In this document: piece by piece, positions 32,875 through 41,005 of the stretch
Position numbering within the stretch: the stretch's first letter is position 1
How the letters are laid out: each line of letters begins with the position of its first letter
Source: Actinomycetes bacterium
GTDB lineage: Bacteria; Actinomycetota; Thermoleophilia; RBG-16-64-13
Length of the DNA: 57,398 nucleotides
Direction: 5' to 3'
Assembly: GCA_021372435.1 (NCBI GenBank)
Contig: JAJFUK010000031.1
Location: forward strand, 1-57,398
The notes under the pieces: model-generated
Told to the model about the DNA's origin: nothing
The model's database searches: none
The model's input: the letters and a program-made list of their open reading frames with translations, nothing else
Position numbers and translations under genes: made by a program

Positions 32875-34989
32875 TCACCCGGCCACCATATCAGAGTCCC
32901 GCGGTGTGCGCTCCACCAGGTCCTCGATCAGCCCGTCCTCGACCAGATGAGGGAGGGTGATGTGCCCGGGCGCGGCCGGCCTGCGCTCCGCATTCCAGGC
33001 CGCCGCGACCTCCAGCGCGGCGTCGTTGCGGGCCCAGGCCCTGCGGGCCACCCCGCCCATGACGTCCCACTCCACGGCCGACCGGATGATGCGGTCGACC
33101 CGCTCAGAGCCGTCCAGTACCAAGCCGAACCCGGTGCTGATGGACCTGCCGACGCCCACGCCCCCGCCGTTGGACGCCACCACCAGGGTCATGCCCCGGG
33201 CCGCGTTGCCGGCCCAGCAGTGGAAGGCCATGTCGGCCATCACGTTGGAACCGTCCCTGACGTTGCTGGTCTCCCGGTACGGCGAATCGGCTCCCGCGAC
33301 ATCGTGATGGTCACGGCCGATGATGACCGGCCCGATCTTGCCACGGCGCACCAGGTCGTTGAAGGCCAGACCGAGGCGCACCCGGCCCTCCGCGTCCGCG
33401 TACAGGATGCGGGCCTGCGACCCTACCACCAGATCGTTGCGGCCGGCGTCACGCACCCAACAGTAGTTGTCATGGTCCTGCCAACAACGCAGGGGATCGA
33501 TGCAGTTCATGGCCGCGGCATCAGTGGTCGCCAGGTCGGCCGGATCGAGGCTGCAGCATACCCAACGGAACGGTCCATAACCCCGGTCGAAGCAAAGCGG
33601 ACCCATGATGTGCTCCACGTACGACGGATAGATGAATCCTTCCTTGGTGTCGGTCCCGTTGGCGGCGACCGCGGTGACCCCCGCCTCGAACACCGCCTTC
33701 AGGAAGCTGTTGCCGTAGTCCCAGAAATAGGTGCCCCGCCCGGCCATGATCCCGATCAGATCGAATTGACGGCGCAGAGACACGTCCACCCGGCGGCGGT
33801 ACTCGGCCGGGTCACTGGAGAGTAGCTCCCGGGCGGCAGAGAAGTCGAGGCCTTGAGGCACGTATCCCCCCTCGTAGGCCGCATGGCACGACGTCTGGTC
33901 GGAGGCCAACTCCACCGGTATCTCATGGTCCACCACGTATTGCCACAGGTCCACCACGTTGCCGTGATATGCGATGGAGAGCGGGGTGCGGGCCGAGCGC
34001 GCGTCTCCCGCCCAGGAGAAGGCCTGGTCGAGATCGGCGGTGACCCGCTGCACCCAGCCCTGCTCATGACGGGTCTCGATGCGCGACAGGTCGACCTCGG
34101 CAACGACACTCACCGCCCCGGCGATATCCGCCGCCTTCGCCTGGGCCCCGCTCATCCCACCCAGGCCGGAGCTCAAATAGAGAACTCCGGCAAGATCTTG
34201 GCCCGGCGGGATCCCGAGATACAGGCGCCCCGCGTTCAGCAGCGTCAGGTATGTGCCGTGCACGATCCCTTGGGGCCCAATGTACATCCACCCCCCGGCG
34301 GTCATCTGACCGTAGTTGGCGACGCCGAGTTGGGCGGCTTCGTGAAAGCCCTCCTGGTCGTCGAACTCCCCTACCATCAGACCGTTGGTGATGATGACCC
34401 GCGGAGCATCGCGATGGCTGGGGAAGAGACCGACCGGATGACCGGACGCGACCACCAGGGTCAGCTCCTCGGTCATCTGCTCCAGATACTGTTTGACCAG
34501 CCGGTACTGCATCCAGTTCTGGAACACCTGGCCCGTCTCGCCGTAGGTGACCAGTTCGTACGGATAGAGGGCCACGGCGAAATCGAGGTTGTTGTCGATG
34601 TTGAGCTGCAGGGCCCGCGCTTCGAGGATCCCTTGGTACTCGTCGATGGGCCGGGCCTTGATGTTGCCGTCAGGGCCGGCCGTGGGCACCCCGCCCCCGC
34701 CGGCGCGGGCACCCGCTTTCCCCGCCGCGCCCGGCCGCGCCGGCGCCGGCCGGAACCGGTAGCCATAGATGCGTCCTCGTTGGCGCAACTCCGCCAAGAA
34801 CTCAGGCGCCACGGCTTCGTGCAGCGCCGGGGGCACGTAGCGCAGGGCGTTCTTAAGAGCAAGGACCGTCTGGCGAGGCGTCAATGTGTACCCGCGATCC
34901 GGCGCCCGGCGGATCCCCGGCGCGAACGTAGCCGGTGGCGGCAGCTCTTCAGGAAGACCGATGATCAACGGCCGGTCGCTTCGAAACAT
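32875..34989 (-). CDS. hutU: Urocanate hydratase, long form
   Basis: Converts urocanate to imidazolonepropionate with tightly bound NAD, second step of histidine degradation. It has 704 residues, longer than the usual bacterial form of about 550 and of the size class of the eukaryotic-type enzyme; RIYGYRFRP, QNWMQYRLVKQYL, MTAGGWMYIGPQG and GLGGMSGAQ are characteristic. Residues 81-109 are an Ala/Gly/Pro insert between RFRP and KARPI, probably a surface loop. ATG 34989 is about 11 bases after GGAG. It follows the formiminotransferase gene by about 155 bases of GC-rich, gene-free DNA. Confidence 0.95.
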   Translation of the reverse strand: MFRSDRPLIIGLPEELPPPATFAPGIRRAPDRGYTLTPRQTVLALKNALRYVPPALHEAVAPEFLAELRQRGRIYGYRFRPAPARPGAAGKAGARAGGGGVPTAGPDGNIKARPIDEYQGILEARALQLNIDNNLDFAVALYPYELVTYGETGQVFQNWMQYRLVKQYLEQMTEELTLVVASGHPVGLFPSHRDAPRVIITNGLMVGEFDDQEGFHEAAQLGVANYGQMTAGGWMYIGPQGIVHGTYLTLLNAGRLYLGIPPGQDLAGVLYLSSGLGGMSGAQAKAADIAGAVSVVAEVDLSRIETRHEQGWVQRVTADLDQAFSWAGDARSARTPLSIAYHGNVVDLWQYVVDHEIPVELASDQTSCHAAYEGGYVPQGLDFSAARELLSSDPAEYRRRVDVSLRRQFDLIGIMAGRGTYFWDYGNSFLKAVFEAGVTAVAANGTDTKEGFIYPSYVEHIMGPLCFDRGYGPFRWVCCSLDPADLATTDAAAMNCIDPLRCWQDHDNYCWVRDAGRNDLVVGSQARILYADAEGRVRLGLAFNDLVRRGKIGPVIIGRDHHDVAGADSPYRETSNVRDGSNVMADMAFHCWAGNAARGMTLVVASNGGGVGVGRSISTGFGLVLDGSERVDRIIRSAVEWDVMGGVARRAWARNDAALEVAAAWNAERRPAAPGHITLPHLVEDGLIEDLVERTPRDSDMVAG

Positions 34990-35144
34990 GATGCTCAGCG
35001 CTCCTTCCTTCTCGGTCACGTTCGCTCCGCGCCCGGGCGGGGTACCTGTGTCGGGGCGGCTCCGGGCGACGCCGCGAAGCGTCGCGACCCGCGAAGCGGG
35101 CAAAGAGCGTGAGCGTAGCGGCGCCATCCGGAGCCGCCCGCCGC

Positions 35145-36038
35145 TCACTCCCCGAGCAACCGGTTCTCTATGACCTGGGCGATAGAGAAATCATGCAACT
35201 GCAGGTAGTAGCGGATGGTCTCCTCGAAGGCCGCCAGCGGGGCCAGTCCGACAAGTTCGCAGCCCGCCACCACCACCCCATAACGGGCCGCTTCAGACCT
35301 GATAGTCTCCAACACCCGGTGGATGGGGGTCTTCTCATACCGGGTGATGTCGGTGGAGACCTGGACCTGTCCCTTGTCCTCCAGGGCGACTCCCATGGCG
35401 CGCACGTACCGGTATCCGCCGCCCGAGAAGCGCACTGCCTGGGCGATGCGCTTCGCGACGGAGAGGTCGGTCGTGGCCAGGTTGACGTTGAAGGCGATGA
35501 GCGGGGGGCGCACACCCACGATCGACGCGCCCGACCGCGCGTTGAAGACCGCCGGGCCGACATCCGGAGCGCCTTCAGGACTGGCGAGCCGGGTCGCCAA
35601 GCCTTCATACTCCCCTCTGCGCACATCGGGCAGTGACTCCCGCTCGGGCCGGACGGCCGCGTCTTCGTAGTAGTAGACGGGGACCCCCTGCCCGCCGATC
35701 CACTCCCCCAGCTTCCGAGCCAGGGCGACCGCGCTCTCGGTGGTGACTCCGCGCAGCGGTACGAGCGGGATCACATCGACCGCCCCCAGCCGCGGATGTG
35801 CGCCTTCGTGCTTCCGCATGTCGATCAGGGCGAAGGCCTCCCGGCAAAGAGCCTGGGTGCCGGCCACCACCGCCTCCGGCTCCCCGACGTAGGTGAGGAC
35901 GGCCCGGTTGTGGTCGCGGTCGGCGCTCCAATCGAGCAGCTCGACCCCCGGCGTCTGTCTGACCGCGCGGACGAGCCGCTCGAGCACCTCCGCATCCCTA
36001 CCCTCGCTGACGTTGGGCACGCACTCGAGCAGCTGCAC
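35145..36038 (-). CDS. ftcD: Glutamate formiminotransferase
   Basis: Transfers the formimino group of N-formiminoglutamate to tetrahydrofolate, giving glutamate. The 297-residue protein comprises the two formiminotransferase subdomains only; the cyclodeaminase part of the fused animal enzyme is absent and is not encoded elsewhere in the window. Motifs: ECVPNVSEGRD at the start, DRDHNRAVLTYVG with the catalytic His region, HEGAHPRLGAVDVIPLVPL, and FNVNLATTDL. GTG 36038 is used, with GGGAGG seven bases upstream. It begins 2 bases after the hutI stop, so the two are coupled. This defines the hut branch as formiminotransferase-type rather than HutF/HutG. Confidence 0.93.
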   Translation of the reverse strand: MQLLECVPNVSEGRDAEVLERLVRAVRQTPGVELLDWSADRDHNRAVLTYVGEPEAVVAGTQALCREAFALIDMRKHEGAHPRLGAVDVIPLVPLRGVTTESAVALARKLGEWIGGQGVPVYYYEDAAVRPERESLPDVRRGEYEGLATRLASPEGAPDVGPAVFNARSGASIVGVRPPLIAFNVNLATTDLSVAKRIAQAVRFSGGGYRYVRAMGVALEDKGQVQVSTDITRYEKTPIHRVLETIRSEAARYGVVVAGCELVGLAPLAAFEETIRYYLQLHDFSIAQVIENRLLGE

Positions 36039-36040
36039 GG

Positions 36041-37348
36041 CTAGACCTCCCCGAGAAGATCCCTCTTGACCACCAGCCTGCCTTCTTTGTACACCCGCCA
36101 CACCGGATTCATGCCGTAACGATAGGGGATCTCGACATGGCGCGTCTCTTCGAGGATGAGGATGTCGGCCTTCTTCCCTACCTCCAGGCTGCCGACCTCG
36201 TCGTCCAGGGCCAACGCGGCCGCCGCCTCGATGGTGATGGCCCGGATCACCTCCTCCGCCGACATGCGGAGTTGCGAGCAGCCCATGGTGGCCATCAACC
36301 AGAGGTTCGACGTAGGGCTCGAGCCGGGATTGAGATCGGTGCTCAAGGCCACCCGCGCACCTGCCTCGAGCAACCGGCGGGCAGGCGCATAGCCGCCCTC
36401 ACCGAGGAAGAAGGTGGCGCCGGGCAGGAGTACCGCCACCGGCACCCGCTTCGGACCCTCCGCCGCCGCCAGCGCGGCGATGCCGGCCTCGCTGATGTGA
36501 TCGAGGTGATCGACGGAGACGGCCCCCAGCGCGGCCGCCATCTCGGTGCCTCCGGTGTAGGTGAGCTGGTCCGCGTGCAATTTAGGCAGCAGGCCATGTT
36601 CCGCACCGGCCTCCAATACCCGGCGGCACTGATCGACGGTGAAGGCGCCCTTCTCGCAGAAGGCGTCGCAGAACTTAGCCAGGTGGTGCTTGGCCGCAGC
36701 GGGGATCATCTTCTTCGTGATGATCTTGACGTAGTCGTCAGGCCGGTCGAGGTACTCCACCGGCACAACATGAGCCGCCAACAGCGTGGGCACCACGTCC
36801 ACGGCATGGGCGGCGCCGACGTCCCGATACACCTCGAGGAGACGCAACTCCTGCTCTTGAGAGAGTCCGTACCCACTCTTTGCCTCCACGGTGGTCACGC
36901 CGAAGCGAAGGAAATAGTCCAAGCGCTTGCGCGTGAGAGCGCGGAGCACTTCGTCGGAGGCGGCTCGGGTGGCGTGGACGGTGCTCATGATCCCGCCCCC
37001 GGCCTCCGCCACCTCCTGGTAGCTCGTCCCCGCCACCCGGAGTTGGAACTCGTCGGACCTGTCGCCAGCGTAGGCCAGATGGGCATGGCATTCGACGAGC
37101 CCGGGCATGACCACCCGCCCGTCGGCATCGACGACCTGGCCGCCCCGCGCCAAACGCACCTCTTCTCGCAAATCACTGGTACGGCCCACCCACACTACGC
37201 GCCCCTCGTGTGCAGCCACCGCTCCCTCCGGGATGACCCCCAACGTCGACCGGGCGCCCGAAGCGGCCTTGGTGCGGGCGCAGGTCAGGAGCTCTCCCGC
37301 CCCGCTCACGATGAGATCGGCCTCTATCCAGGCCCGCGATTCGTTCAC
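36041..37348 (-). CDS. hutI: Imidazolonepropionase
   Basis: Hydrolyses imidazolonepropionate to N-formiminoglutamate; an amidohydrolase-superfamily metalloenzyme. It has 435 residues. Metal and substrate motifs: VECHAHLAYAGDRSDEF (HxH), VEAKSGYG, LHADQ, VDHLDH and STDLNPGSSPTSN with the catalytic Asp. It lies between hutH (10-base gap) and the formiminotransferase gene (2-base gap), on the same strand. Confidence 0.96.
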   Translation of the reverse strand: MNESRAWIEADLIVSGAGELLTCARTKAASGARSTLGVIPEGAVAAHEGRVVWVGRTSDLREEVRLARGGQVVDADGRVVMPGLVECHAHLAYAGDRSDEFQLRVAGTSYQEVAEAGGGIMSTVHATRAASDEVLRALTRKRLDYFLRFGVTTVEAKSGYGLSQEQELRLLEVYRDVGAAHAVDVVPTLLAAHVVPVEYLDRPDDYVKIITKKMIPAAAKHHLAKFCDAFCEKGAFTVDQCRRVLEAGAEHGLLPKLHADQLTYTGGTEMAAALGAVSVDHLDHISEAGIAALAAAEGPKRVPVAVLLPGATFFLGEGGYAPARRLLEAGARVALSTDLNPGSSPTSNLWLMATMGCSQLRMSAEEVIRAITIEAAAALALDDEVGSLEVGKKADILILEETRHVEIPYRYGMNPVWRVYKEGRLVVKRDLLGEV

Positions 37349-37358
37349 CTTCAGCCTC

Positions 37359-38906
37359 CTATCCCGCGTAGGCCGGCTCCAACGGGCCTACCACCCCTTC
37401 TACGCTCTCTATCAGCGAACCGTCCCTGACCATCTCCGCGAGCGCCTCGATGTCAGGCGCCTGCGGGCGGTCTTCCTCCAGCGGCGGTATAGCCCCGCGG
37501 ATGAAATCGTGGGCCGCAGCCACTCCCCGCCCGGGGCGCAGCCCCTCACGGAACTCCAGCCCCTGCGCCCCGCATAGTAGCTCTATCGCGACCACGCGGA
37601 GCACGTTCCCGACGACTTCCCGGCTTTTGAGCGCCGCGAACGCCCCCATGCTGACGAAGTCCTCCTTGTTGGCCGACGTCGGGATACTGTCCACGCAGGC
37701 CGGATGCGCCAGAGTCTTGTTCTCGGAGACGAGCGCGGCCGCCGTCACCTGGGCGATCATGAGCCCGCTGTTGAGCCCGCCGTGAGCGGTCAGGAACGCA
37801 GGGAGATGGTCCGAGGTGCTGGGGTCCATCATGCATTCCACCCTCCGCTCAGAGATGTTGGCCAATTGCGCCAGCGCGATCGCCAGGATGTCCATACCCT
37901 GGGATATGGCCTGTCCGTGGAAGTTCCCTCCCGAGACGACCTTACCCTCCGCCGCGAAGACCAACGGGTTGTCGGTGGCGGCGTTGACCTCGACCTCCAG
38001 CACGCGCCGTACGAAGGCCAGGGCGTCCTTGGCCGCTCCGTGGACCTGGGGGGCGCAGCGCAGGGAGTACGCATCCTGCACCTTGCCACAACCCTCGTGC
38101 GAAGCCATGATCTCGCTGTCCTCCAACAGACGGAGCAGGTTCCGGGCGCTCGCCATCTGCCCGGGGTGGGGTCGCACTCTGTGGGTGATGCCCAGATAGG
38201 GCGTCCGGGTGCCCCTCAGAGCCTCGACCGCCTGCGCCGCCGCGATGTCGGCGGCCTTGCTGATGTTCTCCGCCTCGAGCAGGCTGAGCACCCCTATGGC
38301 CGTCATCATCTGCGTGCCGTTGATGAGGGCCAGGCCTTCCTTCGCCTGCAGCACGACCGGCCGGATACCGGCCTGCCGTAGAGCCTCGCCGCCGGGCATG
38401 CGTCTGCCCCGATAGACCGCCTCGCCCTCGCCGATCAAGACCGCGGTGAGATGAGCCAACGGCGCCAGGTCGCCGCAGGCGCCCACAGAGCCCTAGCTGG
38501 GGATGACGGGGAGGACCCCTGCGTTCACCACGGCAAGAAGGGTCTCGAGGACCGTAAGTCGCGCCCCCGAGTACCCTTTGGCGAGCACGTTCGCCCGCAG
38601 GAGCATCATGGCTCGGGTCTCTTCAGGGCCGAGCGGTTCGCCCACCCCGCAGCAGTGGCTGAAGACCAGGTTGCGCTGCAAAGCGAGGGCTTCGGACCCG
38701 GCGACGGGTACGTCGGCGAACTTGCCGAACCCGGTCGTCACGCCATAGACGACGGCACCTTGGGCGAGCAGCTGCTCGATGTACTCACGGGAGGCCATGA
38801 TCCGGGGGACGGCGGCGGGGGAAAGAGCCACGGCGCGCCCTCCACGAGACACCGAGAGCACATCTTCGAGCCGTAAGGATTCGCCATCTATCAACAGATC
38901 AGCCAT
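37359..38906 (-). pseudogene. hutH: Histidine ammonia-lyase interrupted by one in-frame TAG; MIO triad Ala-Cys-Gly
   Basis: Deaminates histidine to urocanate; full frame 515 codons, normal length. The reading frame is continuous and conserved on both sides of a TAG codon at 38493-38495 (minus strand). The family reads VIP-x-Q-GSVGASGDLAP here; this gene reads VIPS[15 protein letters not shown], so CAG has become TAG, and the MIO Ser codon is TGC (38475-38477). Other catalytic residues are intact: [34 protein letters not shown] at 38486 could reinitiate and give a 375-residue C-terminal part starting two residues before the triad. TAG is used as a normal stop by neighbours (glnA, glnB, the BMP gene). 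It may be a true nonsense allele, a read error, or a suppressed codon. Confidence 0.85.
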
Positions 38907-39006: not shown

Positions 39007-40881
39007 TTAGCCGACGCCGCCGGTGCCCTCCGGGGCGGTGTCCGCGGCCGCTCCGATGTGGAAGGGGATGTTGATCACCACCACCCAGGGTACTCCAAGC
39101 AGCGCAGCCTTCAAGCGCAGGGCATCCTGGTTGTGAAGGAAATTCTCCCACCAGTGCTCCACCACGAACTCCGGGATGATCACCGTGACCGTGTGCTTCG
39201 CGCTCGGCCGGAGGGAGCGGATGTATTCCGTGGCAGGTCGGGTGAACTCGCGATAGGGAGAATCGACGACCAAAAGGGGCACGTCTATCCCCATCTCCTC
39301 CCAGGTCCGCTGCAGAGCCAGGACCCTCTCCGGGTCGTTCGCGATGGTGACGGCGTGGAAGTCGTCAGGGGACAGCCCGCGGCCCAGGGCGAGAGCGCGG
39401 GCGGTCAGCTCGTTGACCTGGGAAACAAAGAGCACGACGGTCGTCCGCGGCCGCGAGACCGCCACCCGCCCCAGCCGCGCCAACTGCTCGGGGTCTTGTG
39501 GCATCAGGAAGCGCGCCACCCGCAGATAGTGCCGGCGCACCGCGTAGAACCCGGCTATCAGGACCGCCACCGCGATAAGCACGATGTAGGCCCCGTGGGT
39601 GAACTTCGTCACCAGCACGACGACGGTGACGATGCCGGTGAGCAGGGCGCCGAAGCCGTTCATCAGAGCCCGCCGTTGCCAGCCCTGGGTGCGCAGCCTG
39701 AACCACCGGACCACCATCCCCGACTGGGACAGGGTGAAACTGGTGAACACCCCCACGGCGTAGAGGGGGATCAGGCTGTGGACCCGGGCCTTGTAGATCA
39801 CCAAGATGGCGATGGCGGCCACCATCAGGCCGATTATCCCGTTGGAGAAGACCAGCTTATCGCCCCGGTTCATGAACTGGCGGGGCATGAGACCGTCCCG
39901 GGCGAGCACCGAGGCCAGCCGGGGGAAGCCGGTGAAGCTGGTGTTGGCCGCCAGAATGAGGATGGCCATCGTGGCGATCTGCAACGCGTAGTAGAAGAAA
40001 CCACCACCGTAGACCACGTGCCCGATCTCCCCCAGGACGGTGGTCCCGTCCTGGGGAACGATGTGGAGGATCTGGGAGAGGGCCGTGACCCCCAGGAGGA
40101 GGAAGGCCAGGATCGCCGCCATGACGCCGAGAGTGATCGAGGCGTTCTTGCTCTCCGGCGGTTTGAAGGCCGGGACCGCGTTCGAGATGGCCTCGGTGCC
40201 GGTCATGGCCGAGCAGCCGCCGGAGAACGCGCGAAGAACGATCCAGAGAAGAGCCGCGCCCTCCAGAGCCGTGGTGCCGGCCGGCACAGGCCGCAGCTCC
40301 AGGTCGCCCATCCTCCAGCGGATCAATCCCACGATCACCAGACCCCCGCAGAGAAGGACGAAGGCATACGTGGGGATGGAAAAGAACCGGCCTGATTCTC
40401 GGACCCCCCGTAGATTGGCGATCGTCACCAGGACGATGAGTCCGATGCAGATCCAGACTCGGTGTGCTTCCAAGGCCGGGAACGCGGCGTCGATGGCCGC
40501 CACCCCGGAGGCCACGCTCACGGCCACCGTCATCACGTAGTCGACCATCAGCGAGCCAGCGGCGAGCATCCCCGGGAACAGACCCAGGTTCTCCCGGCTC
40601 ACGACGTACGACCCGCCCCCGTTGGGATAAGCATGGACGGTCTGCTGGTACGACAGGGCAACAAAGACCAGCAGCACCACCACTGCTATCGCGACATAGA
40701 TCGAGAAAGACGCGGCTGCGCTGCCGGCCAGCACCAGCGCCAACAAGATCTCTTCGGTGGCGTAGGCGGTGGAGGAGATGGCGTCGGAGGCGAAGACCGG
40801 CAGCGCCAACTTCTTGGGCAGGCGCTCCTCCATCTCCTCGGCCGTAGCCACCGGACGGCCCAACAGAGCCCGCTTTATCAT
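39007..40881 (-). CDS. KimA-like APC-superfamily potassium/amino-acid permease
   Basis: 624 residues with about 12 membrane spans (35-450) and a cytoplasmic C-terminal domain of about 170 residues. The start LPVFASDAISSTAYATEEILLALV and the block SYQQTVHAYPNGGGSYVVSRENLG closely resemble KimA (YdaO) high-affinity potassium/proton symporters, rather than typical amino acid permeases. In Bacillus that gene is controlled by a c-di-AMP riboswitch; no recognisable ydaO-type aptamer is seen in the 244 bases upstream. ATG 40881 is preferred over a TTG at 40896; neither has a strong SD. It follows hppA on the same strand after a strong hairpin. Confidence 0.85.
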   Translation of the reverse strand: MIKRALLGRPVATAEEMEERLPKKLALPVFASDAISSTAYATEEILLALVLAGSAAASFSIYVAIAVVVLLVFVALSYQQTVHAYPNGGGSYVVSRENLGLFPGMLAAGSLMVDYVMTVAVSVASGVAAIDAAFPALEAHRVWICIGLIVLVTIANLRGVRESGRFFSIPTYAFVLLCGGLVIVGLIRWRMGDLELRPVPAGTTALEGAALLWIVLRAFSGGCSAMTGTEAISNAVPAFKPPESKNASITLGVMAAILAFLLLGVTALSQILHIVPQDGTTVLGEIGHVVYGGGFFYYALQIATMAILILAANTSFTGFPRLASVLARDGLMPRQFMNRGDKLVFSNGIIGLMVAAIAILVIYKARVHSLIPLYAVGVFTSFTLSQSGMVVRWFRLRTQGWQRRALMNGFGALLTGIVTVVVLVTKFTHGAYIVLIAVAVLIAGFYAVRRHYLRVARFLMPQDPEQLARLGRVAVSRPRTTVVLFVSQVNELTARALALGRGLSPDDFHAVTIANDPERVLALQRTWEEMGIDVPLLVVDSPYREFTRPATEYIRSLRPSAKHTVTVIIPEFVVEHWWENFLHNQDALRLKAALLGVPWVVVINIPFHIGAAADTAPEGTGGVG

Positions 40882-41005
40882 CGCTGCCGCGCCCAACCCG
40901 GCCGTCTCACTCGTCGGATTCGCTCATCAGAGCCTTCGCAAATCGTGTATGGAACGGCCCCATATACACCCCCGCCGCCCGTCGCGTCAAGACGCCGTAT
41001 GACAC

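Follow-up and report, generated by a model that had tools for sequence, protein, structure and literature searches.

A private in-frame TAG in a hutH gene with an Ala-Cys-Gly triad: a probable recent nonsense mutation in an actinobacterial hut cluster

Histidine ammonia-lyases (HutH/HAL; TIGR01225, PF00221) include the P. putida (1gkm) and T. cruzi (6v6h) enzymes. The hutH gene described here has full-length homology, a hut neighbourhood and the catalytic motifs in common with them. However, it differs in two respects: the triad expected to form MIO is Ala-Cys-Gly rather than Ala-Ser-Gly, and codon 138 is TAG. A serine to cysteine change at the same triad position is carried by the P. putida HAL mutant S143C of Langer, Lieber and Retey (1994), which is reportedly processed to active enzyme. 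That mutant is engineered, whereas the cysteine discussed below is natural and inherited within a clade, and MIO formation from it is predicted only. With regard to the stop, the gene resembles nonsense pseudogenes and gene losses under way (a lone stop in a gene that is otherwise whole, sister species having either a relic or no copy at all) and shows no special difference from them.

The interrupted gene and its cluster

The window (the whole stretch of 57,398 nucleotides that was analysed) carries hutH on its minus strand (38906-37359). The gene has 515 codons and a single in-frame stop, TAG at codon 138 (38495-38493), as had been stated in the preliminary description. It thus does not have the one open frame expected of a predicted active enzyme. 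The codons around the stop are GTC ATC CCC AGC TAG GGC TCT GTG GGC GCC TGC GGC GAC, the residues that follow it being GSVGACGD, and the gene's own terminator, codon 516, is also TAG. The triad is Ala143-Cys144-Gly145 (GCC TGC GGC, 38472-38480). Its cysteine had been correctly noted, while its distance from the stop is five codons and not three.

When read through the TAG, the protein scores 684.9 bits with the TIGR01225 equivalog profile (cut-off 539.15); the C-terminal part alone reaches 510.9 bits, below this cut-off. Both fragments match successive stretches of PF00221, positions 1-127 corresponding to the N-terminal open frame of 137 codons (38493-38906). The catalytic residues are kept, namely the Tyr, His, Asn, Gln-Tyr-Arg, Phe and Glu motifs together with the Ser-His switch. 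The source genome, a 2.8 Mb draft in 197 contigs that is 96% complete, includes no second copy which could compensate: hutH is its sole PF00221 match and sole aromatic ammonia-lyase gene.

The operon context is that of a hut gene. Downstream on the same strand lie three intact genes: hutI (imidazolonepropionase, 36041-37348, TIGR01224 450 bits), ftcD (glutamate formimidoyltransferase, 35145-36101, TIGR02024 394.7 bits) and a long, divergent form of hutU (urocanate hydratase, 32875-35148, TIGR01228 407.7 bits for a cut-off of 375). Upstream, also on the minus strand, an amino-acid-permease-like gene (39007-40896) serves as a synteny anchor in the neighbourhood comparison. The divergent hutU form is about 660-750 AA long, and its score of 408 bits compares with about 900 for canonical hutU. 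Both forms are present in one relative (G006), where each shares a contig with a different hutH.

Origin of the stop

The stop is private to the source genome. It occurs in no aligned relative and is therefore missing from the functional orthologues. The preliminary description took the replaced residue for a conserved Gln, but the position is variable: over 128 aligned loci, some of them from the same genome twice, it is occupied by Q (68), K (28), R (25) and a few other residues, and the codons of the nearest relatives are CAA, AAG and AAG. Pairwise dN/dS between hutH and its three closest genes is 0.07-0.30 for the N-terminal and 0.075-0.12 for the C-terminal part. The corresponding values among the intact genes, 0.12-0.34 and 0.11-0.13, overlap these ranges, with synonymous sites near saturation in all these comparisons. 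Neither half shows any trace of relaxed selection by this measure, nor does the gene carry further lesions. Since both halves appear to be under normal purifying selection, the stop is either very young or a sequence error.

The distribution of hutH in the genus and its vicinity bears on this choice. Whole-genome searches find no hutH in three other genomes of the genus (G001, G002 and G003) or in G004, G005, G007 and G012. In G003 a relic (blastn E 7e-24) is found at precisely the corresponding place, with hutI on one side and the permease gene on the other. It consists of about 24 5' codons followed, after a deletion of about 1 kb, by two C-terminal blocks in different frames, and these pieces carry internal deletions and frame changes. 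G001 exhibits a clean loss, without hutH trace in the interval between hutI and a pyrophosphatase gene, and in G012 hutI directly adjoins the permease gene. In G001, G004 and G012, hutI is syntenic, the neighbourhood examined contains neither hutH nor ftcD, and hutU is absent from the whole genome. In the hutI tree, some forks of which are weak, G001 is paired with G000, both lie close to G003 and G012, and the genomes with intact hutH (G009, G010 and G011) are on other branches. This pattern of presence and absence implies several separate losses, if descent was vertical.

Orphan hutI genes are intact in relatives lacking hutH and hutU (L213 5631-6935, L214 2469-3776, L215 8954-10246, L217 9587-10852 and L216); their identity is 77-85%, except for L216 (about 50%). 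At the expected place of hutU in G003 there is a run of N (L214 1511-1556), so that the hutU loss in this genome may partly correspond to an assembly gap.

The main argument for a biologically real TAG is the decay or absence of hutH in the genus. The stop is probably a recent nonsense mutation, an early step of a loss of hutH which has been completed in sister species. A young nonsense allele in an intact hut operon was among the options raised in the preliminary description, and it is the best supported of them in view of the private stop, the intact remainder and the losses in the genus. We infer that the organism itself carries the stop and has lost the enzyme activity through it. RF1 would terminate translation at codon 138, giving a 137-residue fragment devoid of the MIO triad, and the cell would make no histidase or merely trace amounts.

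A lone lesion accompanied by intact hutU, ftcD and hutI also fits a one-base error in a metagenome-assembled genome. The true codon would then be CAG, AAG or another sense codon, the TAG resulting from an assembly or consensus error or from the consensus having taken up a minority nonsense variant. This explanation, which we consider possible but rather unlikely, agrees with the single changed base, with the normal purifying selection seen on the gene and with the fragmentation of the draft into 197 contigs. Against it, a real stop becomes more likely a priori given the decay of the gene in sister species, and few internal stops seem to occur in a 409 kb sample from the source genome. This sample, which includes the window, contains seven other same-frame stops flanked by coding sequence. 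Most of these appear to be ordinary gene junctions. Widespread error-made stops, considered as a general property of the source genome, were not seen in the sample.

Translation past the stop

The preliminary description also envisaged a split ammonia-lyase. Reinitiation at a GTG (38486, codon 141) would generate a second chain of 375 AA, beginning Met-Gly-Ala-Cys-Gly and encoded by the C-terminal open frame (37359-38486). This putative product is compatible with an open GTG three codons past the stop, an AGGG a few bases upstream and the conservation of both halves. However, a very young stop predicts this conservation equally well, the weak SD-like AGGG, the only such signal, overlaps the stop, and the gene is split in no relative. 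Moreover, relatives have the GTG too, as the ordinary conserved Val codon of this motif, and it thus provides no evidence for a split enzyme. Reinitiation appears improbable.

Decoding of the TAG as an amino acid (by a suppressor tRNA, as pyrrolysine or by programmed readthrough) is extremely improbable, the intact and selected downstream frame notwithstanding. The preliminary description had suggested looking for a tRNA-CUA or PylS, which would characterise a pyrrolysine or amber-suppressed gene, and the draft genome (96% complete) yields neither: none of its 44 tRNA genes has a CUA anticodon, and the only match to the PylS model scores 26 bits for a cut-off of 178, a level typical of class II synthetases in control genomes. 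RF1 is present (477 bits). TAG is a common terminator, hutH's own included, and closes 49 of 125 coding frames (about 39%) in the 409 kb sample. RNA folding around the stop is unremarkable (z 0.96 and -0.16), no credible Rfam element is present there, and no relative carries the TAG. Recoding was rejected on the tRNA, PylS, RF1 and stop-usage data, and the readthrough or suppression first proposed finds no support here.

Taken together with the triad, a histidase working despite the stop, as two chains or through amber decoding and with MIO derived from cysteine, is very improbable. If true, it would be an enzyme whose chains are split just before MIO or whose amber codon is decoded, with MIO built from cysteine.

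The cysteine of the MIO triad

The closest hutH genes are those of G011, G010 and G009 (83, 79 and 75% identical), genomes placed in the same family but in other genera. They are uninterrupted, located in hut clusters, and all three encode Ala-Cys-Gly. The next relatives (G008, G014, G006 and G015) have Ala-Ser-Gly. The interrupted gene therefore departs from the Ala-Ser-Gly of HutH in the same way as its intact relatives, and the cysteine they have in common indicates that the triad change is unrelated to the TAG. Ala-Cys-Gly is thus ancestral to this clade of hutH genes, older than the stop and separate from it. The two changes had been considered an unusual co-occurrence. They do not constitute one event, the cysteine being inherited, and a two-step inactivation by cysteine and stop was rejected because the cysteine is older.

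Of 299 surveyed genomes from the class, 124 have a Ser-or-Cys motif, among them 9 with the Cys motif. It also occurs in a paralogous group from another family of this class and in a Bacteroidetes gene (L095), while an Ignavibacteriae gene (L081) has Ser-Cys-Gly. MIO-type lyases with a mid-triad cysteine (L081, L095, L190-L194 and L003-L005; Ala-Cys-Gly and once Ser-Cys-Gly) form at least three separate groups. Cysteine is chemically plausible as a MIO precursor. In the intact Ala-Cys-Gly relatives, MIO would presumably form from it with loss of H2S in place of water.

The stop itself would represent ordinary gene loss or error. Natural MIO-type enzymes with cysteine for the 'invariant' serine are a useful by-product of modest interest. 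Their genes are found in hut clusters within one actinobacterial family, where four genera have them, as paralogues in another family of this class and as isolated Bacteroidetes and Ignavibacteriae genes, and they would provide direct material to test whether MIO can form from cysteine in nature.
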